Assembly: GCF_045679555.1 (NCBI RefSeq)
Contig: NC_092100.1
Coordinates: forward strand, 35,984,106-36,048,105
Origin: Salvelinus alpinus
Taxonomy: Eukaryota; Chordata; Actinopteri; Salmoniformes; Salmonidae
Reading direction: 5' to 3'
Length of the DNA: 64,000 bases
Every line of letters begins with the position of its first letter. Position 1 is the first letter of the stretch. Of this stretch, positions 214-62,574 are shown in pieces. The position numbers and the translations under genes are program-made. A model generated the notes under the pieces. That model was given only the letters and a program-made list of their open reading frames with translations. It made no database searches and was not told the origin of the DNA.

Positions 214-10557
<10,344 letters not shown>

Positions 10558-19500: not shown

Positions 19501-21462
19501 CAAAACATAAATGTATTGTATAACATGTTATAAGAATGTCATCTGATGAAGTTGTTTCTTGGTTAGTGACTAATTTTATCTCTATTTTGTCGGTTTTGTG
19601 AAAGCTACCTATGCGGTGGAAACATGGTGAAAATATGCGGTTGTGTGTTTGGCTATTGTGGTTAGCTAATAGAAATACATATTGTGTTTTCGCTGTAAAA
19701 CATTTTAAAAATCGGAAATGATGGCTGGATTCACAAGATGTTTATCTTTCATTTGCTGTATTGGACTTGTGATTTCATGAAAATTATATTATATGATATC
19801 CCTGTCCCGTTAGGCTAGGCTATGCTAGTCAGCTTTTTTGATGAGGAGGATCCCGGGTCCGGGAGGGTGATGAAGTAGAGGTTAACAAACAGATCATCGA
19901 CCATTTCGAATCCCACCTTACCTTCTTTGCTATGCAATCTGGTTTCCGTGTTGGTCATGGGTGCACCTCAGCCACGCTCAAGGTCCTAAATGATATAACT
20001 GCCATTGATAAAAGACAATACTGTGCAGCCGTCTTCATCGACCTGGCCAAGGCTTTCGACTCTGTCAATGACCGCATTATTATCGGCAGACTCAACATCC
20101 TTGGTTTCTCAAATGACTGCCTCGCCTGGTTCACCAACTACTACTCAGAGTTCAGTGTGTCAAATCGGAGGGCCTGCTGTCTGGACCTCTGGCAGTCTAT
20201 GGGGGTGCCGCAGGGTTCAATCCTCGGGCCGACTCTTTTCTCTGTATACATCAATGATGTCGCTGTTGCTGCTGGTGATTCTCTGATCCACCTCTACGCA
20301 GACGACACCATTCTGTATACATCTGGCCCTTCTTTGGACACTGTTAACAAACCTCCAGATGAGCTTCAATGCCATACAACACTCCTTCCATGGCCTCCAA
20401 CTGCTCTTACATGCAAGTAAAACTAAATGCATGCTATTCAACCGATCGCTGCCCCCGCCTGCCCGACTAGCATCACTACTCTGGACGGTTCTGACTTAGA
20501 ATATGTGGACAACTACAAATGCCTAGGTGTCTGGTTAGACTAAACTCTCCTTCCAGACTCAGATTAACCATCTCCAATCCAAAATTAAATTCCTATTTCG
20601 CAACAACGCCTTCTTCTATCATGCTGCCAAACACCCTCGTAAAACTGACTATCCTACCGATCCTTGACTTCGACGATGTCATTTACAAAATAGCCTCCAA
20701 CACTCTACTCAGCAAATTGGATGCAGTCTATCACAGTGCCATCTGTTTTGTCACCAAAGCCCCATATACTACCCACCACTGCGACCTGTATGCCCCCGTT
20801 GGGTGGCCCTCGCTTCATATCCCACTGGCTCCAGGTAATCTATAAGTCTTTGCCAGGCAAAGCCCTGCCTTATCTCGGCTCACTGGTCACCATAGCAATA
20901 CCCACCCGTAGCACACGCTCCAGCAGGTATATTTCAGTGGTCATCCCCAAAGCCAACTCCTCCTTTGGCCATCTTTCCTTCCAGTTCTCTGCTGCCAATG
21001 ACTGGAAAGAATTGCAAAAATCACCAAAGCTGGAGTCTTATATCTCCCTCACTAACTTTAAGCATCAGCTGCCAGAGCAGCTTACCGATCATTGCTTCTG
21101 TACATAGCCCATCTGTAAATAGCCCACCCAACTACCTCATTCCCATAGTTATTATTTTGCTCCTTTGCACCCCAGCATCTCTACTTGCACATTCATCTTC
21201 TGCACATCTATCACTCCAGTGTTTAATTGCTATATTGTAATTATTTCACCACTATGGCCTATTTATTGCCTTACCTCCCTTATCCTACCTCATTTGCACA
21301 CACTGTATATAGACTTACTATTGTATTACTGACTACATGTTTGTTTATTCCATGTGTAACTCTGTGTTGTTTGTCGCACTGCTTTGCTTTATCTTGGCCA
21401 GGTCGCAGTTGTAAATGAGAACTTGTTCTCAACTGGCCTACCTGGTTAAATAAAGGTGAAAT
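16535..21462 (+). mobile_element. LINE family B (CR1/L2-type), copy 1, interrupted and frameshifted
   Basis: The plus strand shows an endonuclease segment (LAMSESWLRKATKNSE, 16549-16800), a linker with PYKSAGLDNLDPLF (17525-18050), and a reverse transcriptase with MQSGFRVGHGCTSATLKVL, AAVFIDLAKAFDSVN and the catalytic HLYADDTILYTSG (19932-20420). A C-terminal part runs to about 21105. The tail ends in 'cctacctggttaaataaagg'. It is 5'-truncated at about 16535, and frames are broken by small indels and by the 1.8 kb insertion at 18060-19880. Related copies are at 32235, 60385 and 62575. Confidence 0.9.
18060..19880. mobile_element. 1.8 kb non-coding insertion in LINE B with internal ~400 bp repeats
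   Basis: LINE reading stops after 'gccaagtta' (18051-18059) and resumes at 'gttaacaaacag' (19881), leaving a gtta repeat (18056-18059 and 19881-19884) that may be a target duplication. The insert begins with 'caatacgggggcgctg' and ends near 'ggatcccgggtccggg'. Inside, 'tatctttcatttgc' recurs at 18937, 19335 and 19743, and 'ttcgaacaaaacataaatg' recurs about 400 bp apart, so a roughly 400 bp unit is repeated at least twice. No protein-coding content was recognised. Confidence 0.75.
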
Positions 21463-21855: not shown

Positions 21856-24800
21856 TCATCTGTGAGAAGTAGCCACTCCCCCAGGCACTGTGGAGAACCT
21901 GTCCTTGGCAGCGGGGGTCCTCTTTCCCCTTCCTTGAGCTGCAAGAGGGCGTGGTAGTCCCTCCATCCTCCTCTGGTCTCGCTCTTGTCTTTCCCTCCTC
22001 TCTGCTCCCTCGTTTATCACGCTGGCTGTGAAGTCTGTCTGGTTCAGGAAGGCGATGGTCTCATTCCGCCTGCGGCTCACGTAGCCCTTCAGAACGGCGT
22101 TATAGGGGTTAGAGGCAGCGTCCGCGTCTGGATCGTCTGATTGGTGCTTGAACTCCATACGGGTGATGACAGGCAGGAGGAACTGCCCACCTGTGTTGAC
22201 CATACCTCCCTGACAGAGAAAGGGAGAGAAGCTGTCACTCACTCAATTTAGTTCACAGTGTGACATTTGTATATAAAAAATTGTCTCAAGGCATACAAAA
22301 GCCATGTGGCCAAAGAAAGAAATCAAACAGGAAATACAGTACTGAGGACCACTCATGAGACATAATACGATAGAAGCAGTGAGTTGACGTACACCCATGG
22401 CCTCCGAGACCAGGCGGGGGGGCAGGGGGACCAGGTCGCACCCCGAGCAGGGGTCCACGTATTCCCCAAAACGCCTCCTCACCAATGCCACGTCCTGCAA
22501 AGACTGGCTCCTCCTCTCCTCCAGATCTGTCACCACACACTCTGGGTAGGACTGGCCTAGGACTACACCTAGAGGGAGAGGCTGAGGTTTAGCTAAAGTG
22601 TAGATGGATAAGGGGAGTTAAACACCAACAAGTCTATACAGGGAAACACATGAGAGTTGTGTTAGTGGTAAAGCTATAGTATGGTAAGGTTATGGTAACT
22701 CTATAGTAAGATAAGGGTAAGGCTATGGTAAAGTTATTACAATAAGGTTAGGGTAACTGGAAGTTTAAGTTAAGATTAGGAGGATAAGGCTGGTGTTATT
22801 GTCTCTCACCGGCACGGCGCAGCATGGAGGCTGGGCACTTCCAGGGTTTGTGTATGAGGTCATCAGGCAGCACCGCCAGCTCAGGGCACCACTTCCTGAC
22901 ATAGCTTCCGTAAGGGTCACAGGTCATGGCTGCGTCAACAGGGTGCATGACAAAGTTCCAGTGGTCCAGACCACACATGCCTCCATTCTGCCACATCATG
23001 GCATCTATGGCTACGTCAGCATCCACAAGGGTGTCCTACACACACACACAGTCCAACGTTATTAGCAAATCAAATGTTATTTGTCACATGCTTTTGTAAA
23101 CAACAGGTGTAGACTAACTGTGAAATGCTTGCTTAAATGGTCATTTTCCAACAATGCAGAGTTAAAGACAAAGTAAAAAATAAATAATAGAAATAGTGAC
23201 ACTGTGAATAACAAGTAAAAATAACATGGCTATATACAGTTAGCACCAGAACCAAGTCGATGTCCATGGGTATGAGGTTATTGCGGTAGACACTATGTCC
23301 ATATAGGTAGGGGTAAAGTGACAAAGCAACAGGATAGATAATAGGCAGCAGCAGCAGTGTGTGGTGAGTGTGTGGCATCAGTGTCCATGTGTGGGCATTT
23401 AGTGTGTGTGTGTGTGTTGGGGTGTCAGTGTAAGTATGGGTGAGTGAGTCCACTGTGTGTGCATAGAGTTTGTGCAAAAAAGGGTCAATGCAGGTAGTCC
23501 GGGTAGCCATTTGATTAGCTATTTTGCAGTCTTTTTTAGCAGTCTTATGGCTTGGGGTTATAAACTGTTCAGGGTCCTATTGGTTCCAGACTTGGTGCAC
23601 TGGTACCGCTTGCAGAGAAAAAAGTCTATGACTTGGGTGGCTGGAGTCTTTGACCATTTTTTGGGCCTTCCTCCGACACCGCCTGGTATAGAGGTCCTGG
23701 ATGGCAGGGAGCTTGGCCCGAGTGATGTACTGGGCTGTACTCACCACCATCTGTAGTGCCTTGCGGTCAGGTGCCTTGCAGTTACCGTACCAAGCGGTAC
23801 CAGTGCACCAAGTCTGGAAGTCATTAGTCATTAGTCATTAGGTATTCAAGTCATTAGGTATTCTAACTCAGGCGAGCAACAACTCGAGATGTAACATTAG
23901 AGATCGCAAATAAGCTGTTAACAGAGACACACCCCTCCTCCTTTCGTCTTACCCAAGTCTGCCATCCGGTCTTGACAATGCATAGAACAACCAGCGAGAT
24001 GTACACTCTCTCAGAAATAGAATGAGATTCACTTTCTATGATCTCTCTCCCTCTGCTCTGATAGATATGAGCCTGAAACTCTCATCTCTCTAGCATTGCA
24101 CTTCATACTTTTTTCCCTTATAAAATTATAGCTGCGCGAAGGGTTCTAGAGGAACTGCGGCACGCATGAGAAATGTAAATACATTTACCAAAGGTAGAGT
24201 TACTGCTCTGTTCAGAAAGAAATGAAATAATTCAGAATAGCCTACTACACTATGAGAAAGCCTACACTTTGCCACAGATGATAAATGGTTTATTTTCAAA
24301 ATAGCCAAGCTGTGGAATGTAGCCCAATACAAGGCAGAGCCTACAGTCGGGAACAGCGGCAAATATGTCAGTGAACAAACAGCATGCAGACAAAACTGGC
24401 CTTTCTCAATATTTGAAATAGCCTACAATCGTGGGAAAACACAGGTTGGAAAACAAATGGCTAATGCTGAAAAGAGAATACTCTAATATGTCAGCTTTAG
24501 GCTACCAAAACATTTGATCAACTTCCAAATATTGTTTTCCAAAGTAAAACAAGAGAGGCACGAACGCATAGGTGTGAGTCAGCGAAACTGGAAAGCTTTT
24601 TTTGGACTATAATTTCCTGATATTGTAGCCTACAATATGTGTCTCCACACAACTAGGCCTAGGCTATTGATGGATTCAAGACAAGGTCGTTTTCATTGAT
24701 TCATCTCAGATTCTCAGTTTGTCAGTGTCAAAGTAGCCGGTCATTTCGATCATTTGTGCAGTATTATGGTGCTTTCAAGACAACTGGGAACTTGAAAAAA

Positions 24801-27800
24801 CTAGATCAAATCATGATGTCAGTGATCTTCAGGTCAGAAAGTCAGAGCTCTAGAAAGAGGCCAGTTCCCCACATGGGATTCCGAGTTGGATGACCGGTCA
24901 AAACTAATTTTCCCAGTTGGAGCTAGTTTTTTCCCGATTTTCCAGTTGCCTTGAACGCACTGAAGTCGGGAGTCAGAGATTTCCCAGCTCCGAGTTCCCA
25001 GTTGTTTTGAACGCGGCATTAAAAAAGATGGATTTAACAAGTGACATCAATAAGGGATAATAGCTTTCACCTGGTCAGTCTGTCATGGAAAGAGCAGGTG
25101 TTCTTAATGTTTTGTATACTCAGTGTATATAATCCATGTCCTCGTTCAACCACGATTTTGAGAAACATAGGATATTACAGTTTTTCAGTTCCCGTTGATA
25201 GGATGGTCTCAAATGAAGCTCATCCAGTTTGTTCTCTAGTGACTGCACGTTCGCCAATAGAACAGAGGGCAATGCAGTCTATTTGCTGGCCGACGTTTAT
25301 TTGTCAGGATGCCGCCTCGCCTGCCTTTCGGTGCCGCTTCCTCTTTCGATTCCCGGGGACTAGGGGCCTGGTCCGGAGTAAGCTGAACATCCAGAGCTGC
25401 CGACTCGTCGCAGTAGACATTTTCATTTAACAGACAAAGCTCTATAGTCTGGTGTGTATGTCTGTGTGTGTGTGCGACCGTGTGTGCGTGAGTCTCACCT
25501 GGAACCAGCGATATCCCTCCTGCCATGGTAGATGGAGGTAAGCTATGAGGAAAGAAGCTACTACGTGTCTCATATAGTTGTTCATCCATCCAGTCAGCCA
25601 CAGCTGTCTCATTGCAGCATCTACTAGAGGATAACCTGTCCTGCCCTTCTGCCACGCCTTCAGATGACCCCTCTCATTGCTCCACCGAAGGGCCTGATTG
25701 GACAGAAACCAAGAAGAGAGTGAGTATCCTGCTTTCATTGGATACAAACTAGGAAGAGAGTGCTAGAGCTAGTGTTAACCCTGTCCTTGCCTTGTATGGT
25801 GGTCTGAGTGATTCCCAGGGCAGGTCTGGGAACAATGTTAGCTGCCAGTAGGCCAGGTCCCTCCAGGCCAGTTTTCGTATGAACTTGGGGGGTCGGCAGC
25901 GCGCCCCCTTAGTGTCCCACAGCAGCCAGCGAGCACTCAGCTGGCCAAAGTGCAGGTAAGGAGACAGACAGCTGGTGTTGGGGGCATCCGCACGCCCTGA
26001 TTCCTTCTCATATCTGTACACACCTGGAATACGTACACACACACACACATAACATATCTATTCTGTAGGGCGGTTTAATTCCGAGTACAAGTAGAGAAAG
26101 GGAAATGTGTGTGTCTCACCATCATTTAGAAAGGCCTCTAGACGTGACTGGGCCCCCTCCTCACTGAAGTCCCAGGAACTCCTGATGTTAGCCGCCCAGT
26201 CAATCTGGAACAGACACTCACATTAACATACAACCAACAATAACCCAGACCCCCATGTGCTTCAGTCCAAGGGGTTACTGACCGTGGTTCCATCCTTCCT
26301 GCAGGGCATGCGTGCCAGTCCTAGCCCCTCCAGAGGGCAGCCTCTGGGCCAGACAGAGGGTGAGGGGAGCGATATGGGGGGGTCCAGGGGAACCCCTAAC
26401 CCTGGGCCAGGGTTCATCTGACAGCAACTCATGAAGTGGGATACAGAACCAATACCTGAGGGAGGGAAAGTGTGTGAGAGAGTTACTGCTGTGTCATATT
26501 AAATGTTAATAACAGTAGTAGTGGTTGTAACAGTAGTATTACCATACCTCTGAGTCCCACCCCCTCAGTAGTAACAGTATAAGGGTCTCTGAGACAGTAG
26601 GAGTGGACCATGTTAACCTCCACCCTGTCTTTCTGCAGCGCTGACACCACTACCTGGTCCCGCTCTCTCAGCCACGGCTCATAGAGGGCGCTAGCCAGCA
26701 CCGTCTGCGCCCCCGTCTCTCTCACCAGACTCCTCAGGGCAAGCAGCGAGGAACCAATCCCCTCTCTCTCCTCATCCGTCCGAAGGAAAACAAGATGGCT
26801 GCCGATGTGTTCCAGAGCAGAGCTGAGACAGGACAGGGCCTGGTGCAGCCAGAATTTACCTGGGATGAGACAGAGAAGGATTAGACACAGATCAGGAGAC
26901 ACAGAAGCTGAGGTAAAGAAATAATGACATAATATGTATATGTTTATACTTACAGGCGCCTCCCATAGCCACGGTTACCCCGGGACCCTCCTCCTCCTCT
27001 GGGCACCAGATAAAGACGGGGATGACCGGCCCTCCAGCCGCCAACGAGCCAATCACAGCTGGGTTGTCATGGAGACGCAGGTCCCTGCGGAACCACAGCA
27101 GCACAGGGGGTGGAGCCGAGGGCCATCGAGGCATACCTACCACCTGCTGGCCATACCCCTTCCGCCGCTGACGTCGGTTCTTTGAGCGCTTTGGCTTCTC
27201 AGATTGGTCCACTTCGCACTCCACCACTGTGATGTCATCTTTGGCTTGGTTGAGATTGGATGTCAAAGAAGTGGCAATAGAGGCACACACATCCTGAGTG
27301 ACATTAGACCACTTTATGTCTGTCTGTTTCTGGGTCTGGGTTGGGCCTCTCTGTCTCTCTGTCTGAGGAGAGCTGCCATGTCCAGAGGATCTTCTGGGTG
27401 ATGTGGAGTCTTGGTGTTGAGCCTGAGTCTGTCTCCTTCCTCCTACTGCTGCTAGCTGGGCATAGCTCGCACCCTTGGGTAGAGGGGCTGGCGGAGGCTG
27501 GCTGGAGCTACCATTAGGAGAAACTGACTGACTCTGAATGGAGCTATTCTGGGGTCTGTAGGTTGCCGTAGCCTGGGTGTCTGTTTGACCCTGGAGTTTA
27601 GGGTCTGGGAAGAGGGGCTTGGTATCGGTCTGCTGTTGCCCTTTGACCTCTAATAGGGACAGAGCCAGAGCCACTGCCAACTCATCATCCTCATCCTGTA
27701 ACAGACAATTATGGTCATATATACAGCTTTAGTCATATATACAGCTTTACAATGTTAGAGGTTCGAAATAGTCTCTGTCTCTGCTTTACCTTCTTGACAA

Positions 27801-28261
27801 ATACAACTCAGCTGGAAAATCCAGCTGTACCAGCTCAAGCCAGTGAACAGCACAAAATCTGATCTGGTCTAAACTGGATTTTCCAGCAGGGTACGTTAGG
27901 CCTACAACACTAACAAAACACACACAACTATTAAACTAACAAATGTCATTGTGTTGAGACAGAGTATCTATAATACTTTTAGAAGATGACTGGACTATAC
28001 ACACCCACACACAAACAAACAAACCAACAGTCGTACCTTGGAGAAGTATTCCAAATAGATTGAGGTGAGGGTGGTGTGAAGGCTGTTGTGATCGGTGGCT
28101 AGGAGCTGGATGAGCGGCAAGAAATGTGTCCGTGTATCGTTGTGTCCCAGTACAGACACACACAGACAGAAGAAGCCCTCGGCGTTCTCTCTCCCCACAA
28201 GCAACTCTCTCAGCATCTGACGAACCTGGGACATGGGGTCCTCACCACCCGATACAGGCAT
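21856..28261 (-). CDS. Plant-type-like cryptochrome/photolyase-family protein with N-terminal UIM-like motif
   Basis: Ten minus-strand exons: 28037-28261, 26954-27695, 26548-26859, 26283-26455, 26120-26204, 25791-26023, 25499-25693, 22810-23035, 22395-22568, 21856-22205. They sum to exactly 905 codons including stop (904 aa). An in-frame TAG two codons before the ATG fixes the start. In order: a helical leucine-rich segment (1-75); [16 protein letters not shown] (76-91), matching the ubiquitin-interacting motif; a Gln/Ser-rich linker; a basic cluster [12 protein letters not shown] (about 243-254), a likely nuclear signal; the photolyase alpha/beta domain from [15 protein letters not shown] (about 272); and the FAD domain with [20 protein letters not shown] and [16 protein letters not shown]. 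The tail after about 755 is 150 aa and rich in Arg. W594, W647 and W670 keep the spacing of the Arabidopsis CRY1 Trp triad, and D666 fills the flavin-proximal Asp position where photolyases have Asn. One intron uses a GC donor (25791/25790). DNA repair or light signalling are both possible roles; neither is shown. Confidence 0.88.
23064..23822 (-). mobile_element. LINE family A fragment, 5'-truncated, in an intron of the cryptochrome-like gene
   Basis: The minus strand encodes the C-terminal end of the LINE A protein: [37 protein letters not shown] (23577-23831). It then runs through the family's 3' tail to 'acaaataacatttgattt' at about 23064. It lies in the 2.4 kb intron between exons 22810-23035 and 25499-25693, in the same orientation as the gene. 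Confidence 0.85.
23823..24765. other. Intron of the cryptochrome-like gene; nothing recognised
   Basis: AT-rich sequence with a small 'gtcattag' tandem repeat at 23819-23860. No coding exon was needed here: the flanking exons join in phase. Confidence 0.45.
24766..25019. mobile_element. MITE-like palindromic element
   Basis: The left end 'gtgctttcaagacaactgggaact' and the reversed right end 'atgccgcgttcaaaacaactggg' are similar, and the interior has several gtcgga/tccgac-like inverted pieces. About 250 bp long with no coding content, it resembles a short non-autonomous DNA transposon common in salmonid and other teleost genomes. Confidence 0.7.
25030..25131. repeat. Fragment of an interspersed repeat (second copy at 29728-29800)
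   Basis: 'aacaagtgacatcaataagg', 'tagctttcacctggtcagtc' and 'ggaaagagcaggtgttc' occur here and again at 29728-29800. Only one end of the element is present at either place. Confidence 0.65.
25132..25498. other. Intron sequence before cryptochrome exon 25499-25693
   Basis: No exon was recognised. The last 50 bp carry a TG-rich run next to the splice donor at 25498. Confidence 0.4.
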
Positions 28262-28984
28262 GGTCTATTGCTGGTGATGAAAAGCAATAAAACGGAGAGG
28301 AGTTCCCTACTGAAACTGTCAGTCTCTCTTAAAATTCAAAATGCCAAAAAATCCAGATTAGGTCGTAATCATCCATGAGAAGACAATGTTAAAGGTTGTT
28401 GATTTCTTTTGCATTTTTCGGGAAGTTTTCGATTAGTGGTGATAGTGGGACAGAGAGAATCGAGTATGCTGCAACGTGAATGAGTTACTCAACAGCTGAT
28501 AGCCAGTTACACAAACTCAATCCCACGCTGTTTTGTAATTACTTCGGATGTGATGCAATGTAACATTGTGACCAATAGAGGGCACACGTCTACAATATTA
28601 CAGTCATTAGTCTCACTTCCTACGCTCATGGTGCTCCTGAGAAACACACAGCTTCCCTCTCCACACTAAAGACAAATAAAATCATCATCCCTCTCCCACC
28701 AAGTGTCTTTTATACCGTTCATTTATTCTCTTGATCCTCATGCTATACGAGAGAGAGAGAGATCAATAGTGTTTAGACAAAGTATGTAGTCTCTAAGTGT
28801 GTGATCAATAGAGAACAGGGAGATTAGCTGGCTTCTCTCTGTCTCTCACTAACAGATAGATCAGTGAATGGACCAATCTGCCATAAGCCTAAACACATCT
28901 GTCTGCCGTCACATGCTATCAATAAAGATCTGTTTTGAATGTATACCTAAGAGATCAAAGAGAGAAAAAGAGGTGACAGGAGAA
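28262..28984. other. 5' flank of the cryptochrome-like gene
   Basis: This should hold the promoter and 5' UTR of the minus-strand gene ending at 28261. I see no TATA box or E-box/D-box arrangement that I would defend. A short GA repeat lies at 28748-28761. LINE A sequence begins at about 28985. Confidence 0.4.
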
Positions 28985-29404
28985 GAGATGAGGGCTCTCC
29001 AGAGGGTGGTGTGGTCAGCCCAACGCATCATCAGGGCACACTGCCTGCCCTCCAGGACATGTACAGCACCCAGTGTCACAGGAAGGCCAAGAAGATCATC
29101 AAGGACCTCAGCCACCCGAGCCATGACTGATAAATAGCTTTTATCTCCAGGCCATCAGACTGTTAAACCGTCAGCACTAGCTGGCCTCCTCCCAGTAACC
29201 TGCCCTGAACCTTAGTCAGTGTTACTAGCCGGCCACCTTCCGGTATGTACATAGAGACATTGAACACTGGTCACTTTATTCATGTTTACATACTGTTTTA
29301 TTCACTTTATATGGATATACTGTATTCTAGTCATGGCTCATCCTATATAACTACTGCTGTACACACCTATTCTATTCATATACTGTCCATACTGCCTATA
29401 CACA

Positions 29405-32234: not shown

Positions 32235-34908
32235 GGCCCTTCTGCTAACTTGCTAGCCCCGGTCTGCTAACTGCTAGCTTGCTAGCCTCGGTCTGCTAGC
32301 TTGCTAGCCCCGGTCTGTTAACTGCTAGCTTGTTAGCCCCGGCCTACTAACTGCTAGCTTGTTAGCCCCGGCCTGCTAACTGTCTGAATCGCCGTGTCCC
32401 CAGCCAGCCCAACCACTCACTGGACCCATATGATCACTTGGTTACACATGCCTCTCTCTAATATCAATATGCCTCGTCCATTACTGTCCTGGTTAGTGAT
32501 TACTGTCTTATTTCACTGTAGAGCCTCAAGCCCTGCTCAATATGCCTTAACCAACCATGTTGTTCCACCTCCTACATATGCGATGACATCACCTAGTTTA
32601 AACGTCTCTAGAGACTATATCTCTCTCATCATTACTCAATGCATTAGCATCGAATAGCCCCCGTGATATGCAACTTTTCAGGGAAGTTAGAAACAAATAT
32701 ACATAGGCAGTTAGGAAAGCCAAGGCTAGCTTTTTCAAACAGAAATTTGCATCCTGTAGTACAAACTCAAAAAAGTTCTGGGACACTGTAAAGTCCATGG
32801 AGAATAAGAGCACCTCCTCCCAGCTGCCCACTGCTCTGAGGCTAGGAAACGCTGTTACCATCGATAAATCCACTATAATTGAGAATTTCAATAAGCATTT
32901 CTCTACGGCTGGCCATGCTTTCCACCTGGCTACCCCTACCACGGTCAACTGCCCGGCACCCTCCACAGCAACCCGCCCAAGTCCCCACCATTTCTCTTTC
33001 ACCCAAATCCAGATAGCTGATGTTCTGAAAGAGCTGCAAAATCTGGACCCCTACAAATCAGCCGGGCTAGACAATCTGGACCCTCTCTTTCTAAAATTAT
33101 CTTTGTTGCAACCCCTATTACTAGCCTGTTCAACCTCTCTTTCGTATCGTCTGAGATTCCTAAAGATTGGAAAGCTGCCACGGTCATCCGCGTCTTCAAA
33201 GGGGGTGACACTCTAGACCCAAACTTCTACAGACCTATATCCATCCTACCCTGCCTTTCTAAGGTCTTCGAAAGCCAAGTTAACAAACAGATTACTGACC
33301 AATTCGAATCCCACCGTACCTTCTCCGATATGCAATCTGGTTTCCGAACTTGTCATGGGTGCACCTCAGCCACGCTCAAGGTCCTAAACGATATCATAAC
33401 CGCCATCGATAAGAGACCTGGCCAAGGCTTTCGACTCTGTCAATTAACACATTCTTATTGGCAGACTCGACAGCCTTGGTTTCTCAAATGATTGCCTCGC
33501 CTGGTTTACCAACTACTTCTCTAGTAGAGTTCAGTGTGTCAAATCGGAGGGCCTGTTGTCCGGACCTCTGGCAGTCTCTATGGGGGTGCCACAGGGTTCA
33601 ATTCTCGGGCCGACTCTGTTCTCTGTATACATCAATGATGTCGCTCTTGCAGCTGGGGATTCTCTGATCCACCTCTACGCAGACAACACTAATTCTGTAT
33701 ACTTCTGACCCCTCTTTGGACACTGTGTTAACTAACCTCCAGACGAGCTTCAATGCCATACAACTCTCCTTCCGTGGCCTGCAACTGCTTTTCCATGCAA
33801 GTAAATCTAAATGCATGCTATTCAATCGATCACTGCCTGCACCTGCCCGCCCGTCCAGCATCACTAATCTGGACGGCTTTGACTTAGAATACGTGGACAA
33901 CTACAAATACCTAGGTGTCTGGTTAGACTGTAAACTCCTTCCAGACTCACATTAAGCATCTCCAATCAAAATATTTAATCTAGAATCGGCTTCCTATATT
34001 GCAACACAGCATCCTTCACTCATGCTGCCAAACATACCCTCGTAAAACTGACCATCCTACCAATCCTCGACTTCGGCGACGTCATCTATAAAATAGCCTC
34101 CAACACTCTACTCAACAAATTGGATGCAGTCTATCACAGTGCCATCTGTTTTGTCACCAAAGCCCCATACACTACCTACCACTGCGACCTGTATGCTCTC
34201 GTTGGTTGGCCCTCGCTTCATACTCGTCGCCAAACCCACTGGCTACAGGTTATCTACAAGTCTATGCTAGGTAAAGCCCCGCCTTAGCTCAGCTCACTGG
34301 TCACCATAGCAGCACTCACTCGTAGCACACGCTCCAGCAGGTATATCTTACTGGTCACCCCCAAAGCCAATTCCTTCTTTGGTCGCCTTTCCTTCCAGTT
34401 CTCTGCTGCCAATGATTGGAACGAACTGCAAAAATCACTGAAGCTGGAGACTCATATCTCCCTCACTAGCTTTAAGCACCAGCTGTCAGAGTAGCTCACA
34501 GATCACTGCACCTGTACATAGCCCATCTGTAAACAGCCCGTCTATCTACCTCATCCCCATACTGTATTTATTTATTTATCTTGCCCCTTTGCACCCCAGT
34601 ATCTCTACTTGCACATTCATCTTCTGCACATCTACCATTCCAGTGATTAATTGCTATATTGTAATTACTTCGCCACCATGGCCTATTTATTGCCTTAACT
34701 CCCTTATCTTACCTCATTTGCACACACAGTATATAGACTTTTTGTTTTATTTTTTCTACTATTATTGACTGTATGTTTTATTCCATGTGTAACTCTGTGT
34801 TGTTGTATGTGTCGAATTGCTATGCTTTATCTTGACCAGGTCGCAGTTGCAAATGAGAACTTGTTCTCAACTAGCCTACCTGGTTAAACAAAGGTGAAAT
34901 AAAATAAA
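32235..34908 (+). mobile_element. LINE family B, copy 2, internally deleted
   Basis: It begins with a 5' leader containing the short repeat 'ctgctaactgctagcttg' (32238-32390) and 'tgacatcacctagttt'. At about 32640 it jumps directly to 'cattagcatcgaatagcccc', which in copies 1 and 4 lies well inside the ORF, so the endonuclease region is missing. The linker (FNKHFSTAGHAFHLATP), the reverse transcriptase and the C-terminal part follow with several frameshifts (for example 'gcagacaacact' at the catalytic box, giving YADN in place of YADD). The tail ends at 34908. Confidence 0.88.
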
Positions 34909-43563: not shown

Positions 43564-46500
43564 TCAATGGTTGTGAGAGAAGCTGGAGTCATCTGCAGGA
43601 CCCATCTGATGAAATGAGCCATAGGCAGCTCTGTCAGTCTGTGAACAGTGGTGGGCCCTGACATGGGCGTCCAGGGCGTTCTGAGCGTTGAAGAGAGCCC
43701 TGCAGAACGGACAGCGCCTGTGGTTGTCACCGAGACACAGACCTCCTCCTCTCCCCAGGCTCTGGAGCTGGCCCTTCCTCTGACGAGCCCTGGTGTTCTG
43801 GAACCATACCTGAGGAAGGACAAACACAGCAGTGTTACATGTTATTACACAAAACATGCTCACCATTACATAATTATAGAAATGTTACTATGAGAATGAT
43901 AGAGTACCTGCACTACACGTTTCTTCAGGCCTGTGTCCCTGGTGATGCCCTCCAGTACAGAGCGGGTTGGGTTGGAGTTCAGACTGTAGCGCTGGTACAG
44001 AACCTCTAGCTGCGCCGAACTGATGGTGGTCCTCTGGCGCCTATCCCTCCTCTGCTCATCACCCTCTCTCTCTCCCTCTTCCTCTCTCTCACCGTCCATC
44101 ACATCCCTCATAGGCGTTACCGCTGTCCCTTCCTCCAGCCTACGCTTCAGAAAGGGCAGGGCTGGGCTAGGAGCACAGTGTGTGTTAGTGTATGAGGTTA
44201 GAGATGGGCTAGGAGCACAGTGTGTGTTAGTGTATGAGGTTAGAGATGGGCTAGGAGCACTGTGTGTGTTAGTGTATGGGGGTAGAGATGGGCTAGGAGC
44301 ACAGTGTGTGTTAGTGTATGGGGGTAGAGATTGGCTAGGAGCACAGTGTGTGTTAGTGTATGGGGGTAGAGATGGGCTAGGAGCACAGTGTGTGTTAGTG
44401 TATGGGGGTAGAGATGGGCTAGGAGCACAGTGTGTGTTAGTGTATGGGGGTAGAGATGGGCTAGGAGCACAGTGTGTGTTAGTGTATGGGGGTAGAGATG
44501 GGCTAGGAGCACAGTGTGTGTTCGTGTATGAGGGTAGAGATGGTTTGTGGGTGGAGTGAGCGTTGGTGAATAGGGATAGGGGTGGTTGGTGGCCCGATGA
44601 TAACAGGGACTGGTACTGAAGCATAGACTGGAGTGCTATGGGTTGCATTAGACCAAGGGGGAGGAGAGAGAGGTCTATGGGGAAGGGAAGAGTGGGGAGG
44701 CTTGGTAAAGGAAGAGGGGGCAGGGGGAGTTGGGATAAGGGGAAATGCATGGAGAGATTGGACTGGGGTATGATAGTTGGAGAGGGGGCAGAGGTGGTTG
44801 TCGATGTCATAGTGTCCTGCTGCTGCTCTGGAAGTGGTTGTGTTTGGGAAGAGGGTGGAGGAGGAGAGGGTGTTGGTGAGGCTTGGGCTGGGCAGAAGGA
44901 ATTAACTGGGGCTTGGTCTGTGGACAGGGTTACAGGTACAGATGCTGGTGTGGTGGGTACAGCTTGGTCTGGACCTATGGCTGAGGCTTGGGAGAGGGAT
45001 TGGGCTTGGATAAGAGACTGGTCCCTCCCCAAACCCATTTCATCCCTTGAATAAGAGACTGGTGCTGGGGGTAAGGGTGCAAGTACAGGTGCTGTGGCTG
45101 GGGTTAGACGTGCAACAACAGTATTATCATTGTCTGCCACAGGGAAGGGTGTGAGGGGGTAGAGGCAGTCATACTGTCTGGAGAACGTCTCCAACACTAC
45201 CGGAGTGATCATTTGCTGGTGAACAAACTCCTGATGGCTCTTCAGGATCAGAGAGTCAGAGAACTGCTTCCCACATTCTCCACACTGCTTCTCCTCCTCC
45301 AGGCATCCACCCGTCTCTCTGTTCTGTTGTCTCTGTCTGCTCTGATTGGATTGCAGGGCCAGCTCCCAGCCATATCTCTCCAGCAGAACTCTGAGAGCCT
45401 TCTCTGCTCCATCCCTCTTCTTGCTCTCCTGCATCTCTCCATCTCCCTCAGGAGAGGAGGATGGGTTTGACTCTTTCTCCGTCTGGTGAAGGGGGGAGTC
45501 ACTGTCAGCTGTCTCAGCCTGAGTCTCACATTTCGGGGCCTGGGCTGGAAACTGGATGCTAGTTGTCACCAGCTTTGGAGAGGGATGTTTAAGCCCATTT
45601 GTCTGAGAGGAGAGGGCAGAGATGGTCTGGAGGGAGAGGGCTGAGGTGATCTGACTAAAGTTCATGTTAGGGTTGAGCTGCAGACCTCCAGAGAGGTAGA
45701 AGGACTGGATCATCTGCTGCTGTAGAGAAAACAGGCTGTCTGGGGAGAACTGGAGGGGAGAGAGGAGGTTCCTCTGTTGGAGACTCTCTGCTGCTGAAGG
45801 GAGGAACTGCTTTAAGAGGTTCTGCTGCAGTAAGGGGAGGTGCGGGAGCAGTGTTGGACTAAAGAGCTGGGGCTGGAGGAGGGCTGTGTGTTCCTCTATA
45901 TGGGCCTGGGCTAACTTATGTTGCTGTTGTGGCATCTGGGCCTGTGCTACCTGCTGTTGGAGTAACGTTAGGTCCTGCTGTCCTCCAGATGCTGTCAGGT
46001 CCTCTACTCTCCGCCTCTTAGCCTGGTGGCCCTCAGCCTTCCCAGAGACACCCACACTCAGCTGGGCTTCACTGAGGGAGGAACAGGGACTTGGGGAGGA
46101 AGGGGCTGATCTGGTGGCTGTTGGGGTGGTTCCCCTGGTAGATACCTCTCCTCCCCCTGGTGAACGGCTGGAGGAAGTGGTCTGAACCAAGGCTGGAACT
46201 AGGGTTTGGCGGGTGTGGGGGTTCAGTGATAGCTGGGTCCGAGCTCCACGGGCTCGTGTCTGGTGCAGTACAGAGCGGAGGTGGATGTCCAGGGTGGAAC
46301 TCTGGCTGTAAGCCACCCGACACATTCTGCAGCGGTAGGAACTTGGGTCTGGGGCCGGGCTGCAGCGGGTGTCAGGGGGACTGGGGCTGGAGTCCTGCAG
46401 GACCCGTCTGGCTCTGGCTCGGTGGGACAGAGAGTTATAGAGGACCGGCAGGATGGTTCTCTGAGTGAAGGACTCACAGCAGAAGGAACACTTGTAGGGC

Positions 46501-49500
46501 TGAGCCGGGTCCAGGAACCGCTCCAGAGTGGGGTTGAAGCCCTTGCTGAAGGGGTTGGGTTCTGACCCTGCCTCCTTCTCCTCCTGCTGCCTTGAACCCT
46601 GGTCACTGTCACCAACCCCTGAACTGGGCCTCTCCTCCTCCTCATCTGGGTCATCCTTTTCATCCTCCTCTCCTTCATCTCCCTTTCCCTGCTCTCCCTC
46701 CTCATCATCTTCCTCCTTATCCGTCTCTTCTTCACTCATACTCTCCCCCTCCTCTTCCTCCCCCCCCAGGCTGATTGGTTGTTGGATGTGTGCTCCACTC
46801 TGGTCAGGGTGTGTACCCTGTAGGTGTAGGTCCTGTAGGTGTGTGTTGAGCAGGTGTCTCTGCAGGGCCTCTTGGCTGCGGCAGCGTCTGGGGCAGAGGT
46901 GGCACTCTGTCGCCGCCCTCATGGCGTGGTACTGCCAGTGCAGCTGCAGCTTCTTCTGCCTTCGGACCGCTAGACTGCACCTGCCGCAGCGAAACCTGTA
47001 ACCATGACAATCAGAGGGGGGAGGGGCATCACTGGGAGGAGACGGGGGTAAAGTGGATGAAGGGAGGTTGTTGGGGGAGAGAGAGGAAATAGTGGGTGGG
47101 GAAGGGGGAGAGCTGGGGGACTCAAGGAGGTGAGAGGTGTTGTCCTCTGCTGGGTGCTGGTCCTTACAGGGAGGAGTCAGAAGAGCAGGGACATCTTTGG
47201 CTGTGATTACTTTTTCTTTATGGTAGTCATTTGTTTGAGGCTCGTTTGTGAGGGATTCCTTCGTGTAAGAGCTGTTTGTGTTGCAATCGTTTGTTTGAGA
47301 TTCCTTTATATTTGAGTGGGACTCCATCTGCAGTGTCTCTTTCTGCAGAATCTCAGGCAGCTCCACTGCCACCTGGAAAAGAAATCAACAACAAAGGTTT
47401 AAAACGTCAGTCTGAATCTATCCAGATGACTGATTGCCTTTATAGTCAGTCAAAACAGTGTCTATCCTGTTTGATAGTGCAGATGGAATAATAATAGTGA
47501 TGCTCCTTTATTGTCTACATCACCTCATTCTCCCGTTACACACTAATAATAGATGGAGGAAAACCGAATCAAGAGTGTTTTTAAATCAACCACAAACACA
47601 CACACACACACACACACTGAAAGAAGACACACACACTTGCATGGCAGAGACAGAAGAGACGCATACACATAATACGTATATGCCCCAGTGAGAGAGTGAA
47701 GGTCAGGCTTAATCTAGACAGAGACATTGGAAAGCGCGGAACATAATGGCCATCATAATCCAAGTCTGAATTAATGAACATATGCTATTATCAGAGAGAA
47801 AGGGGGGAGGGGAAATGGGGGGTGGGGTGCAGAGAGAAAATGGGGGGCTGGTGAGGGGGAGGGGAGACAGAGACAGAACAAGGGGTGGAGAGATGGGAAT
47901 AGAGAAAGAACAAGGGGGCGCAGAAAGAAAGATGGAGAGGTAGAGAGTGGAAAGAAAGGGATAGAGAAAGTGAGAGAAGATGGAGAGATAAGAAAAGGGA
48001 GTAAAGAAAACGGGAGTAGGGAGAGGGTGAGAGAGGTGAGAGGTGAAAGAGGGATGAAGGGGGAAATAGGAAGAGGGAGTCAAAGAGGGAGACAAAGAGC
48101 ACTGATCATGCTGGGCAAAGTAATGGAGGTTGGTGATGTGGAGAAAAATGAGCACTCTTTGTTTGCTGGAGACACTATAAGCGAGCTCCTTCAGCTCGAC
48201 TGCCCTTCTGCTAATAAAAAGGTAGCTAGAACACACACAGAAACACACACACTTACCATACTCATGAGCTTGTCCACACAGTCCTGGACCACACTGTGTA
48301 TGAGTATGAGGTGGCGTCTCAGGTGTGTGTATACCAGTGTGTCCTGGCACAGTGGGCACTTGGCAGTAGCCTGTTGGTGAGTAGTGCGCTGGTCTGTTCT
48401 GGGGCGTTTGGGAGAGAGGGGGCTCTGTGTCTCCTCCAGCCCAGAGAACGATCGCTTGGCTGGAGAAAGGGAATCTCTCCTCTCCCCCTCCTCAATGCTT
48501 CCACCTAGAAAGGTAACACATACAGTACCAGTCAAAAGTTTGGACACACCTACTCATTCAAGGGTTTTCTTTATTTTTACTATTTTCTACATTGTAGAAT
48601 AATAGTGAAGACATCAAAACTATGAAATAACACATATGGAATCATGTAGTAACCAAAACATATATATATATTTTTTTCATAATATATTTTAGATTCTTCA
48701 AAGTAGCCACCCTTTGCCTTAATGACAGCTTTGCACACTCTTGGCATTCTCTCAACCAGCATCACGAAGAGTGCTTTTCCAACTGTCCTGAACAACTTCC
48801 CACATATGCTGAGCACTTGTTGGCTGCTTTTCCTTCATTCTGTGGTCCAACTTATTCCAAACCATCTCAATTGGGTTGAGGTCGGGTGATTGTGGAGGAC
48901 AGGTCATCTGATGAGGCACTTCATCTCTCTCCTTGGTCAAATAGCCCTTACACAGCCTGGAAGTGTGTTTTGGGTCATTGTCTTATTGAAAAACAAATGA
49001 TAGTCCCACTAAGCGCAAACCAGATGGATTCTGGGGTAGCCATGCTGGTTAAGTGTGCCTTGAATTCTAAATAAATCACAGATAGTGTCACCAGCAAAGC
49101 ACCCCCATACCATCACACCTCCTCCTCCATGCTTCCCGGTGGGAACCACACATGCGAAGATCATCCGTTCACCTACTCTGCATCTCACAAAGACACGGCG
49201 GTTGGAACCCAAAATCTCAAATTTGGATTCATCAGACCAAAGGACAGATTTCCACCTGTCTAATGTCTATTAGGTGCTTCTACACCTGCATTGCTTGCTG
49301 TTTGGGGTTTTAGGCTGGGTTTCTGTACAGCACTTTGAGATATCAGCTGATGTAAGAAGGGCTATATAAATACATTTGATTTGATTTTGATTTGCTTGTG
49401 TTTCTTGGATCAAAGAAAGTCTTCTTATTATTGGTGTCCTTTAGTAGTGGTTTCTTTGCAGAAATTCGACCATGAACGCCTGATTCACGCAGTCTCCTCT

Positions 49501-52500
49501 GAACAGTTGATGTTGAGATGTGTCTGTTACTTGAACTGCAATCTGAGGTGCAGTTAACTCTAATGAACTTATCCTCTGCAGCAGAGGTAACTCTGGGTCT
49601 TCCTTTCCTGTGGCGGTCCTCATGAGAGCCAGTTTCATCATAGGGCTTGATGGTTTTTGTGACTTTACTTGAAGAAAAGTTCAAAGCTCTTCAGATTTTC
49701 CGGATTGACTGACCTGACCACCTATTGATGGACTGTTGTTTCTCTTTGCTTATTTGAGCTCTTCTTGCCATAATATGGACTTGGTATTTTACCAAATAGG
49801 GCTATCTTCTGTATACCACCCCTACCGTGTCACAACACAACTGATTGGCTCAAAAGGAATTAAGAAGGAAATAAATTCTACAAATTAACTTTTAACAAGG
49901 CACACCTGTTAATTGAAATGCATTCCAGGTGACATCCTCATGAACCTGGTTGAGAGAATGCCAATAGTGTGCAAAACTGTCATCAAGGCAAAGGGTGGCT
50001 ACTTTGAATAATCTCAAATCTCAAATATATTTAGATTTATTTAATACTTATTTGGTTACTAGATGATTCCATATGTGTTATTTCATCGTTTTGAGGTCTT
50101 CACTATTATTCTACAATGTAGAAAATAGTAAAAATAAAGTGTGTCCAAACTGGTACTGTATGTTAATACACAGCAACAAACACAGCAACACACACACATA
50201 CTGTATACTAATTGATCCAGTATACATTTTCTATTAGGAAATCCTCTGGGGTTTAGACCAGTTCATTCAGACCGGATACCTGGTATTGACTGTTTAATAC
50301 AGAGTCGCAGACTGAGTTAGACCAGATTTAATCCTGACAGTTAGACCAGATTTAATCCTGACAGTTAGACCAGATTTAATCCTGACAGTTAGTCCAGATT
50401 TAACCCTGACAGTTAGTCCAGATATAATCCTGACAGTTAGACTAGAGGAAAGGAGTCATTAGAGTCATCAGAAAGGTACTCCCCCTTTATCTCTCTGTGT
50501 ATCTCTCTCCGTCTTCCGCACCTGCTCTCTCCATCTCTCTGTCTATCTCTCTCTCTACTGCACCTGCTCTCTCTACCTCTGAATGCTTGGCTATAAAAAG
50601 AAACTGACATTTACTCCTGAGGTGCTGACCTGTTGCACACTCTATAACCACTGTGATTATTATTTGTCCCTGCTGATCATCTATGAACGTTTGAACATCT
50701 TGAAGAACGATCTGGCCTTAATGGCCATGTACTCTTATAATCTCCACAGGGAACAGCCAAAAGAGGAGTGGCCACCCCTCAGAGCCTGGTTCCTCTCTAG
50801 GTTTCTTCCTAGGTTCCTGTCTCTCTAGGGAGTTTTTCCTAGCCACAGTGCGTCGACATCTGCATTGCTTGCTCTCTGGGGTTTTAGGCTTTAGGGTTTA
50901 GGGCTTTAGGGTTTAGGGCTTTAGGGTTTCTGTATAAGCACTTTGTGACATCTGCTGATGTAAAAAGGGCTTTATAAATGTATTTGATTGATACACTGAG
51001 GGAAGATTTCCCGGGTCCTGATTAAGCCTAGTGCTGCTAAACTAAAAATCATGCCGGAGAATCTCTATTGACAGTGCTTTTTAGTCCAGGATTAGGCTCT
51101 GAGTCTGGGTAACTGACCCTGAAATCTCTATTCTAGAACATTAAAGTTCAATAGCAGTGTCTCAGCGATGTCTCAAGTTAGCGTTGTCGGGGGCAATGTG
51201 GGATGTAACAAGCTTGTTTCGACAAATCAATTAACCCAATAGATCCCTGACCATAATCAATAATTCCTTCTCTCTCTTCACCCTGCTCCATCTCTCCAAG
51301 TTTCTTCTCTCCGTTGACATTATAGGCCTGCAGATAATTTTCTCCATTCTATTCGTCAACTTGTTCTGGACTGGTGTACAAATATGGTTGCCAATGCCTT
51401 AACTAATGATAAACTTTTAAATTCATCAGGGGAACTGAACAAGTGCACACTTCAGATAGGAGGGATTTGGAAATGACCAGCTAAGTCTCTTACCTGTCTC
51501 AGGACTGGGACACTTCCTAATGGTGAAAGTAGCCGCTAGCCCCTCCCCTTCCTCCAGGCTCCTCCCTCTCACTAACTGCAAGTAGTGAAGCTCCCTCTTC
51601 TGATGACCAGGGGAGTGGGTATGTCTCAATAGGTGGAGTTTAGAACAGGAGGAGTAGTTACACAGGACACAATGGAACAACCAGGACCCTCCATCTACTG
51701 CACTGTCATACTGCTGTAAGAACTAGAGAGAGAGGAACATAGGGTGATAGGTTGGAGTTAGACTGTGATAGAGAGAAAGATGCACTAAATAAATCTGGTC
51801 CCTGTGCTTTATTTGCTGTCTATATGCCAGATATTTAGAAATAATCTTATAGTCCAAGTACAGCAGTGACACAGGCCTCCAAATCGTGTGTGTGTGTACT
51901 GACCCTGTAGACTCTGAGGTTGGCCTGGTGTTGGGGGTTGATGCTGTGTATTTTCAGTTTCTCCAAGCTGGTGGTCTGGAAGTCACACAAGTTACACTTC
52001 AGCTGGACTGGGTTGCCTGTAGCAACCAACTTCACAAATTCCTCCCTGTCCCCGGCCTCCCAGAGGTGGGAAGCCAGCTGGTACTGGGCCCTGTGTCTGT
52101 CTGTCTGGCAGTGCAAGGTGAAGTTAGCCCTGAGGGGGGTGCTGTAGCCACACAGCCTGCAGTAGCAGCCTCCAGCCACCAGAGAGCGCCACTCAGACTG
52201 GGGCAGGGAGCAGGGGGCGCTCAGGTGAGACCTAAGAGACTCCAGACTGTCAGAGGAGAAACTGGAACACACCAGGCACTGGAACACACCACAGGAAAGA
52301 GGAGAAGAGGGGGAGAGAGACAGTGGAGGAGGGGGAGAGGAGGATGGAGAAGGGGATGGTGAGGAGGGAGGAGGAGAGGGGGAGGGGGTCAGGGTTGAAT
52401 CCGGGGCGACTGGCTCCTCTGCTGATAGTTGATGCATATCCAAAGACTGTTCGCCACCTAGAACACACAGCACACAAACAGGCCATGAGAAAACATACTG

Positions 52501-54180
52501 TACATATAAGCATGGATATAATCAAGTATCAACCTAACTTGATGTGCCAGTGAACAGAGCCCAACAGAACAGTTATTGAGTATGTGTGTGTGGTCTCTCA
52601 CCTATGCTGTGTAGCAGTGTGAGTTGAGGAGGCAGACTCCTGCAGTGGGCCAGGTAGTAGCTTCTCTGCAACACGTTGGGTGTTTGTTTCAGGCGCAGCA
52701 CGTTATGCATGTGTTTCTCGCTGGTGGTGTGTATGCGCAGATTCCGGGCAATGCTGGTCTCATAATCACACACCTCACACCGCCACCTCTTACCGTGGGA
52801 AGGGGGCTGGCTGGGGTAGGGTGTTGTGTGTGCAGGGGGCTGTGTGACTGTGGGGTGTGTGTGTCCGTAGCCCTGTTCGCCTGCCGTGTCTCTGACAGCG
52901 TAGCCACCATTGTGTGCGGAGTGTGTGTGAGTGCCGTGCGCAGGGTGTGTGTGTCCTGCTACCTGTACGTTGCTGAGGTGTTTGTCTGACTGCATGTGTA
53001 TGCTGAGGTTTCCTTTAGAGGAGGTTGTGTAATCACACACACCACAGTGGTAGGGTTTGTACTCACAAACATAACTCTCTCCCCGGGACAGACGAGGGTG
53101 GGCCTTCCCCGTGCTACAGTACACACACACACCCCTTGACACTCCACACACACACTTCTCCCCCGAGCCCCCACACACACACAAGCCCCCAGACGCAGGG
53201 TGTTTTTCTCTGAGGTGGGCATGCAGTGTCTGCTGGGACTTGTAGTGCCAGTTACATTTGGGGCATTTGAGCATCTTGCAGGAGTTCCAGGAGTGCATCA
53301 AGGCCATGTGACTGTTCAGTGAGCCAGGTGAGGACGGAGAGGGGTGGAGGTATTTAGAAACGGTCTTTAAGTTCTCATCTCTCTCTCTATCCTTATCTCC
53401 TTCTATCTCTCCATCTCCCTCTCTTTTTCCATCTGTCTCTTTTGGGTTGTTGTTTGGTTTTGGAACTTTGGCGGTGTCTCCATTGGCAATAAGGGAAGTG
53501 TGAGTGGTGTCTGTCCTCCTATCATCCGTAACAGGTGTGCTGGTGTACTCAGGCAGCGCTGACTTCTGGGGTTTAATAAAGCTCAGAGGAAAATTAGGAC
53601 TACTGCCCTGCACTCCTCTTGTATCTCTCATCTCTGTGATGAGGGTGTTATTGTTCAGTGTGCCACTGGCCATAACAGTGCAGGAGGCAGAGCTGTGCTG
53701 GCTCCGTCGAGGTAATAGACTACATTTGGAGTTGGTTTGGCTTTGGTTTGAGATGGCCTCTTCCCTCTGTTTCTCCTCCTTTCCTCCTCTGTCTTTGCTA
53801 CTAAATGCTGGTGCAAGGTTCTCTCTCTCCACCGTTTCCTCTCTGTCATCCACCAGTAATATTCTTTCTTTCTCCTTCTTCTCCTTTAGCTTCTCTTCCT
53901 CTAGTCTGCCTCCATGTGAGTGTCCAACCCTCTCCCCTCCTGGGGTCTCCTCTCTGCCTGCGGTCCCCTCTGCACCGCCCTGCTCTGTCTCTGTCTGGAT
54001 CAGGGTGGGGGGCTCTTTGGCAGGGGCCCGGGCTAAGGTTCGAGAGGACAACCCCTCACAGGGAATCACTTCCAGGGTCAGGAGAGGATGGGATAACAGC
54101 TTGTGGCTCTTTTCAGGTTCTCTCTCCTGTCCTCCCTCTCTTCCTCCATCCCTTCCTCTCCCTCCCTCACCACTGTTCAT
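43564..54180 (-). CDS. ZFHX-family (ATBF1-like) zinc-finger homeodomain protein, shortened
   Basis: Six minus-strand exons: 52602-54180, 51904-52457, 51494-51722, 48257-48504, 43908-47372, then from 43809 to the stop at 43564. Phases agree and the product is about 2106 aa. It is a nuclear DNA-binding regulator by family. The C2H2 order matches ZFHX3: [118 protein letters not shown], and five more in exon 5. One exon 5 finger has lost its first His (CSFCCESF...LYNSLSH). One homeodomain (about 1981-2038, [16 protein letters not shown] / [14 protein letters not shown]) equals the third of ZFHX3 and is followed by [11 protein letters not shown]. Homeodomains 1 and 2 are absent; a 14-residue repeat lies where they would be. 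The N-terminus starts much later than in ZFHX3. After the stop, homologous sequence continues in other frames, a sign of decay. ZFHX2, 3 and 4 are not separable by eye. Confidence 0.88.
44165..44570. repeat. 42-bp coding minisatellite in ZFHX-like exon 5
   Basis: About ten tandem units of 42 bp encode the 14-residue repeat [14 protein letters not shown] on the minus strand. Units vary at a few bases (for example 'tatgaggttag' versus 'tatgggggtag'), and the first and last are the most diverged. The length is a multiple of three, so copy number changes keep the frame. Confidence 0.95.
47373..48256. other. ZFHX-like intron with purine-rich tract
   Basis: Between exons 43908-47372 and 48257-48504. 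It contains a CA repeat (47593-47617) and a long G/A-rich stretch on the plus strand (47800-48100). Frames read there on the minus strand are simple Ser/Pro/Leu sequence. Confidence 0.5.
48521..50162 (-). mobile_element. Tc1-like transposon with both ends, in a ZFHX-like intron
   Basis: The left end 'acagtaccagtcaaaagttt' and the right end 'gtgtccaaactggtactgta' are inverted copies, followed on both sides by the sub-terminal 'attttctacattgtagaata'. Minus-strand transposase pieces include [20 protein letters not shown] and [20 protein letters not shown] (49343-49684) and [20 protein letters not shown] (48752-48940), a DDE-core motif. Several stops and a nested repeat (49263-49400) show it is inactive. 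It begins only 16 bp before the acceptor side of exon 48257-48504. Confidence 0.9.
49263..49400. repeat. Interspersed repeat nested in the Tc1-like element
   Basis: 'acctgcattgcttgctgttt' to 'gggctatataaatacatttg', ending in a TTTGATTTGATTT-like tail. A related copy lies at 50855-50995. It interrupts the transposase sequence. Confidence 0.75.
50317..50450. repeat. 24-bp tandem repeat, about five copies
   Basis: 'ttagaccagatttaatcctg' plus 'acag' repeats with a few substitutions, in an intron of the ZFHX-like gene. Confidence 0.9.
50720..50997. repeat. Teleost interspersed repeat with internal TTTAGGG-like expansion
   Basis: 'ctctctaggtttcttcctag', 'gggagtttttcctagccaca' and 'gggctttataaatgtatttg' mark a repeat common in fish genomes. 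At 50884-50930 the segment 'ggctttagggtttag' is locally duplicated. Confidence 0.7.
50998..51493. other. ZFHX-like intron, no feature recognised
   Basis: Unremarkable intron sequence leading to the exon at 51494-51722. Confidence 0.4.
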
Positions 54181-62225: not shown

Positions 62226-62574
62226 GCAAAATGAGTAGATTTGCATGAAATGTGTTATAAAATTACTACATTCTCTCTCCGTCCAATGGCAAAATGTGTA
62301 AAATTGCACAGATCACTGGAAAGGCATTCTGGTCTTGTTAAAGTCTACTGTAAATTTAAAATTGTTCATAAATTCGTCCAAGGTGGCTTAGCAGTTCAGA
62401 CGTCTTTTTCTGTTCCGTATTGTTGTGTCCTGTATATATATATATTTACACCTTTCTTCGCATATCTTTTATCTATTTTATTATCCAAGAACTCAACTAC
62501 AAAAGCTTTCCTGCAAAAGCTTTCCTGCAACCCGCTTCACCAAGTACAAAAAGTATTATTTACCTCAATCTGAA

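Follow-up and report, generated by a model that had tools for sequence, protein, structure and literature searches.

The minus-strand gene at 21856–28261 of the window (the whole 64,000-nucleotide stretch of Salvelinus alpinus DNA analysed here) raises the question of what a plant-cryptochrome-like protein with a UIM-like N-terminus is in a fish: to which family it belongs, whether it is a light sensor or a DNA repair enzyme, and whether its putative ubiquitin-binding arm is truly its own.

Gene model

Ten minus-strand exons running from 28261 to 21856 splice into one open frame of 2721 nt, which with exon borders at consensus splice sites encodes 906 aa and a stop. The donors are GT in eight of nine introns and GC in one (intron 6, AAG at the exon end followed by gcaagg), and the acceptors are AG in all nine. 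The ten in-phase exons of the first-pass annotation, with its coordinates, are borne out by the open spliced frame; its 905 codons (904 aa) come from an alternative, equally open exon 9/10 junction that puts the end of exon 9 at 22395 and the start of exon 10 at 22205, and the two forms differ by two glycines, aa 790–791. The other two frames of the 905-codon message contain 45 and 34 stops. Splice junctions within the photolyase domain fall in sequence that can be aligned with Agrobacterium PhrA and plant CRY2 chains, a check that covers that domain, the exon 9/10 junction lying outside it. The features are as follows.

21856..28261, minus strand: predicted CRY6 / PCRY-like gene, 10 coding exons, 906 aa (open spliced frame; PF00875, PF03441; pl1, pl2, pl3)
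28037..28261, minus strand: exon 1, aa 1–75 (spliced frame; without Pfam match; one genome match)
26954..27695, minus strand: exon 2, aa 76–322, with UIM, linker, basic cluster and photolyase-domain start (Pfam, alignment, UIM pattern; one genome match)
27648..27695, minus strand: UIM-consensus helix, aa 76–91 (Pfam 10.3 bits, sub-threshold; strict pattern)
27162..27191, minus strand: basic cluster, aa 244–253 (alignment; position as in frog NLS/NoLS)
26548..26859, minus strand: exon 3, with pl1 VGLR (aa 423–426) at its end (spliced frame, alignment)
26283..26455, minus strand: exon 4 (spliced frame)
26120..26204, minus strand: exon 5 (spliced frame)
25791..26023, minus strand: exon 6, GC donor; pl2 WRDLAY (aa 566–571) (spliced frame, alignment)
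25499..25693, minus strand: exon 7, FAD-binding core; Trp triad W594 and W647 (spliced frame, alignment)
22810..23035, minus strand: exon 8, with flavin-proximal D666, triad W670 and pl3 MWQNGG (aa 669–674) (spliced frame, alignments)
22393..22568, minus strand: exon 9 (alternative end 22395) (spliced frame)
21856..22209, minus strand: exon 10, C-terminal tail and stop (alternative start 22205) (spliced frame)

Among the three Pfam families for which the first-pass annotation had proposed a scan, PF00875 (DNA_photolyase; aa 273–421, 103.4 bits) and PF03441 (FAD_binding_7; aa 560–756, 225.3 bits) score over their cut-offs, and PF02809 (UIM; aa 76–89) falls below its own, with 10.3 bits against 21 (E 0.72). 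The N-terminal extension of ~270 residues stands as first described, and the C-terminal tail comes to ~145 aa as against the 150 claimed. With the PHR starting at aa 273, the extension is in line with the ~200 aa published for CRY6.

Identity as CRY6

The paper on the cryptochrome family used here for signature motifs, PMC9498864, we take to be Deppisch et al. 2022. All three signature motifs of the subfamily are present in the alignment, namely VGLR at aa 423–426, WRDLAY at aa 566–571 and MWQNGG at aa 669–674. These motifs (the last as MWQNxG) are reported in 74, 83 and 97 per cent, respectively, of the proteins there called PCRY-like, the other name of the subfamily being CRY6, and MWQNxG, or pl3, in 100 of 103 PCRY-like members and 0 of 2144 other family members (PMC9498864).

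The order of the parts—extension, UIM, basic cluster, PHR, tail—is likewise that published for frog CRY6. In Xenopus tropicalis CRY6 a conserved N-terminal extension includes a tetrahelical region and a ubiquitin-interacting helix (DI-UIM), the helix being conserved in the CRY6 of Takifugu and zebrafish as well; a basic NLS/NoLS, the plant-like PHR and the C-terminal tail complete the protein (Okano et al. 2023, PMC11520951). Okano et al. 2017 (PMC5394683) had earlier named fugu CRY6 and described it as nearer to the CRYs of plants than to the remaining CRYs of animals, and a zebrafish plant-like Cry is listed in PMC4564169; the 'Cry6' of PMC4350181 is a Drosophila-type CRY and a different protein.

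By published motifs and layout we are thus highly confident in assigning the gene as an intact teleost orthologue of CRY6 (PCRY-like, plant-like Cry), and it is these that carry the assignment; the tree described below agrees with a plant-like place but is weak alone. The reading of the locus as a plant-cryptochrome-like member of the fish cryptochrome family agrees with these motifs and with the best NCBIfam model. The accompanying statement that known vertebrate members are without a UIM does not hold, since CRY6 is a known vertebrate member with a published ubiquitin motif (PMC11520951), and the caution that fish annotations may already include the orthologue was right, CRY6 having been published in fugu and zebrafish. 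The gene and its arrangement of domains are already known, as is the idea of a link from light to ubiquitin, and the locus is an intact, unremarkable member of an established family. What is added here is the plant-type flavin-proximal Asp666, the intact Trp triad, the altered CPD-contact positions and a decayed duplicate of the gene; in the passages of PMC11520951 consulted, neither the flavin Asp of CRY6 nor its repair pocket is mentioned.

Placement among cryptochromes and photolyases

The best-scoring NCBIfam model is that for plant cryptochromes, at 286.9 bits (below its 603.85 cut-off), followed by 8-HDF photolyase (184.6), E. coli-type photolyase (184), DASH (130.8, under the CRY-DASH cut-off of 317.05) and phr2 (25.1). 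Among solved structures the ranking begins with chain 4u63, presumably Agrobacterium PhrA, at 288.7 bits, and continues with plant CRYs at 246–257 and with the RE11660p chains, which we take to be Drosophila 6-4 photolyase, at 163 and lower, and then the rest. In the alignment the protein is 36 per cent identical to AtCRY2 and 40 per cent to 4u63, and bacterial relatives reach up to 43 per cent.

These relatives are 80 loci kept of 590 confirmed in one scan of bacterial and archaeal contigs. A first tree of 40 rows held the window protein, three plant CRYs, PhrA, 29 of the 80 bacterial loci and six outgroups, and left the window protein without a starred partner; an outgroup row first labelled as a Vibrio DASH grouped with E. 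coli class I photolyase (100/98) and was relabelled. For a second tree of 27 rows a Haladaptatus protein (end branch 10) and 12 more bacterial rows were dropped. Both trees were built without animal cryptochrome, 6-4 photolyase or named CRY6 rows, and DASH is represented by one row in the second; neither the PDB search nor the scan of bacterial and archaeal contigs yielded a CRY6 sequence. In the 27-row tree the window protein joins the three plant CRYs (support 71/78.9), and these four sit together with 10 bacterial rows in a part of 14 rows (91/80); PhrA stands outside it, as do the class I rows and the one for DASH. The window row is a long branch (1.8) of unusual letter make-up, held by no starred branch. 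In AU tests, union with class I gave p 0.0395; unions with the PhrA pair (p 0.065) and with the one DASH row (p-AU 0.143) were not rejected. A FastTree grouping of the window protein with two Sporosarcina rows (0.881) was set aside. By sequence comparison, then, the union with plant CRYs appears weakly supported.

Flavin site and repair pocket

In alignment with the AtCRY2, ZmCRY2 and PhrA chains, the Trp triad of the window protein is intact (W594, W647, W670); the ZmCRY2 chain itself has Ala at the middle position. D666 stands at the position of AtCRY2 D393, where all three plant CRY chains have Asp and where 4u63 and all 80 of the bacterial relatives kept from the scan have Asn. We take six positions to be CPD contacts, namely K563, W566, N629, Y630, H633 and N672 in the window protein; the literature numbering of E. 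coli photolyase used for them runs one below the annotated protein, and the window positions fit the corrected numbering by adjacency. Two of the six are kept, W566 (W in 80 of 80 bacterial rows) and N629 (N in 80 of 80). At the other positions K563 faces E (69) or Q (11), Y630 faces R (all 80), H633 faces M (79) or L (1), and N672 faces W (all 80), this last being alignment-dependent, with a gap there in the AtCRY2/ZmCRY2/PhrA alignment. Four of the six CPD-contact positions, N672 with that dependence, are therefore replaced.

It is against this background that a class III CPD photolyase-type repair enzyme with an acquired N-terminal extension has to be weighed. The best structural match is indeed a photolyase chain, bacterial relatives reach 43 per cent identity, two contact positions survive, and fugu Cry6 is blue-light-induced and grouped with photolyases and repair genes (PMC5394683). 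Against it stand the four contact replacements, the residues lost being E, R, M and W in 69, 80, 79 and 80 of the 80 relatives, and D666 in place of a uniform bacterial Asn; union with the PhrA pair costs 16.3 log-likelihood, with a p-AU that is above 0.05. Asp as the flavin proton donor is what sets plant CRYs apart (review, PMC8653763). Asp666, the intact triad and the replaced contacts together favour a photosensor over a repair enzyme, and on this footing a photosensor role is probable and the repair enzyme a rather improbable alternative.

As a separate observation, WRDLAY or MWQNxG occurs in none and VGLR in three of 71 bacterial proteins (from 71 of the 80 loci); the PCRY-like signature was not seen in the bacterial relatives so covered (71 proteins from 80 loci, of 590 confirmed).

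A decayed second copy

Among the best candidates scored in the 2.37 Gb assembly, the exon 1 and exon 2 peptides have one match each at E 0.001 or better. A PF03441 search of the genome gave 27 exon matches, one of which belongs to a second CRY6 on C9 at 31.23 Mb (C9:31228500-31238400, at about 5058–8520 of that segment), represented by four pieces within aa 547–906 at 55–81 per cent identity. The pieces belong to exons 6–10, and exon 7 is interrupted and frame-shifted, with stops. The exon 6 remnant is directly adjoined by sequence that matches 28309–28993, upstream of the gene in the window, and exons 1–5 are thus missing from this copy. The genome holds one full CRY6 copy and one decayed duplicate without exons 1–5, a state that fits an old duplicate such as would remain after whole-genome duplication.

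That loss happens in this genome might suggest that the window gene is itself a non-functional duplicate, but the decayed copy is the other one, and in the window gene all 10 exons form an open 906-codon frame in which the splice sites and key residues are preserved, so that we regard this as very unlikely. The intact gene differs from the remnant in intron 7 (23036–25498), which measures 2463 bases when the other eight introns span 78–341; sequence probably entered it, because the matching gap in the decayed copy is far shorter.

A further exon at C8:45.65 Mb is CRY-DASH-like, its best plasmid match (73.6 per cent) being annotated as a DASH family cryptochrome and its other listed matches (49–59 per cent) mostly as photo-lyase; we take it to be DASH. 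Its presence is in keeping with the co-occurrence of the two families. Genomes with CRY6 / PCRY-like genes are reported usually to hold CRY-DASH as well (PMC9498864).

Elsewhere in the window a ZFHX-type gene occupies 43866–54207 on the minus strand, with a homeodomain and C2H2 fingers, a ZFHX3-type finger among them, in long open frames; the long frame also contains an in-frame tandem repeat. A LINE-like reverse transcriptase piece lies at 19845–20420, with PF00078, and further LINE-like reverse transcriptase pieces, alike by eye only, lie at 32707–33491 and 60435–62254.

The N-terminal extension and its UIM

The exon 1 peptide has no Pfam match, and by position it may correspond to the tetrahelical region in the frog protein CRY6. 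The UIM follows at the start of exon 2. Its strict pattern matches aa 77–91; when the residues of the protein are shuffled 20000 times, this pattern arises in 8 cases and a looser one in 187. A PDB search with the peptide gave three chains. C2HR4_8r reached E 1.9e-6 overall, although none of its individual segments was significant, and the others were AN1-type zinc finger protein 2B, at E 0.045, and, at E 1.2, proteasome subunit 4. A basic cluster at aa 244–253, NLS/NoLS-like by sequence, precedes the PHR.

Within exon 2 alone a single open frame runs from the UIM through the first 50 residues of the photolyase domain, so that the fusion is independent of any splice; the claim that the UIM-like N-terminus belongs to this gene is upheld by this exon and by the same layout in frog and fish orthologues. 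That the UIM exon was joined by mistake from another gene, a reading that draws on the sub-threshold Pfam score, is extremely unlikely given this exon, the same order in the frog protein and the conservation of the ubiquitin motif in Takifugu and zebrafish CRY6 (PMC11520951).

Proposed function

The isolated motif of frog CRY6 binds K48 polyubiquitin, and a light-to-ubiquitin role for CRY6 has already been proposed; frog GFP-CRY6 is cytoplasmic, and the difference in frog CRY6 mRNA between ZT0 and ZT11 is not significant (PMC11520951). For the window protein the most likely mechanism is as follows. The photolyase-homology domain would bind FAD, blue light would drive electron transfer along W670–W647–W594, and Asp666 would hand a proton to the flavin, giving a neutral semiquinone that would in turn lead to a change in the photolyase-homology domain. 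The N-terminal UIM would bind ubiquitin chains, and if it does the protein may act as a light-regulated adaptor for ubiquitinated partners, a tentative suggestion that is less likely than not. Diatom CryP is isolated with its FAD as a stable neutral radical, unlike plant CRYs, and has MTHF as antenna (review, PMC8591175), and since its flavin is already in that state the dark state of the window protein may also differ.

More broadly, CRY6 could conceivably be a vertebrate photoreceptor that unites a ubiquitin-binding arm with a flavin photocycle of the plant type, Asp serving as proton donor and the repair pocket being lost, so that blue light switches its hold on ubiquitinated proteins; we put this forward as speculation with the odds against it. 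If true, it would be an animal counterpart, by another route, of the way in which plant cryptochromes control degradation through ubiquitin. There is a concrete reason, in the flavin Asp of plant type and the changed repair pocket, to view CRY6 as a light sensor rather than a repair enzyme, and the ubiquitin arm offers a measurable output.

D-boxes were considered as a clue to light response and rejected: TTAYGTAA occurs 7 times in the window against 3.3 expected (7 being reached in 8 of 100 shuffles), the nearest more than 9 kb from the gene start, and a looser pattern occurs 127 times against 116 expected, with three one-mismatch sites at 28507–28558.

Comparison with known systems

With class III CPD photolyase (PhrA, 4u63) the window protein has the photolyase-homology domain in common at 40 per cent identity, but 4u63 carries Asn at the flavin position and a pocket of E, W, N, R, M and W, two of which are kept. 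With plant CRY1/CRY2 it shares the flavin-proximal Asp, the Trp triad and the best NCBIfam model, yet it scores below the curated plant-CRY cut-off and is 36 per cent identical to AtCRY2; motifs specific to plant CRYs are reported absent from PCRY-like proteins (PMC9498864).

The signatures VGLR, WRDLAY and MWQNxG of the PCRY-like proteins, such as diatom CryP and oyster CgPCRY, are all found in the window protein. CryP has a C-terminal tail of ~70 residues, and in the part of the review that describes it an N-terminal extension is not mentioned (PMC8591175), whereas oyster CgPCRY, like the window protein, has an extended N-terminus (PMC5224872). The vertebrate CRY6 proteins have the same plan. 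The window protein differs from them in the details of its UIM sequence, and its 906 aa compare with Asn862 as the highest frog CRY6 residue named in the passages of PMC11520951 consulted. XtCRY6, TrCRY6 and zebrafish CRY6 have in common with it the N-terminal extension with a ubiquitin-interacting helix, the basic cluster, the plant-like PHR and the tail.
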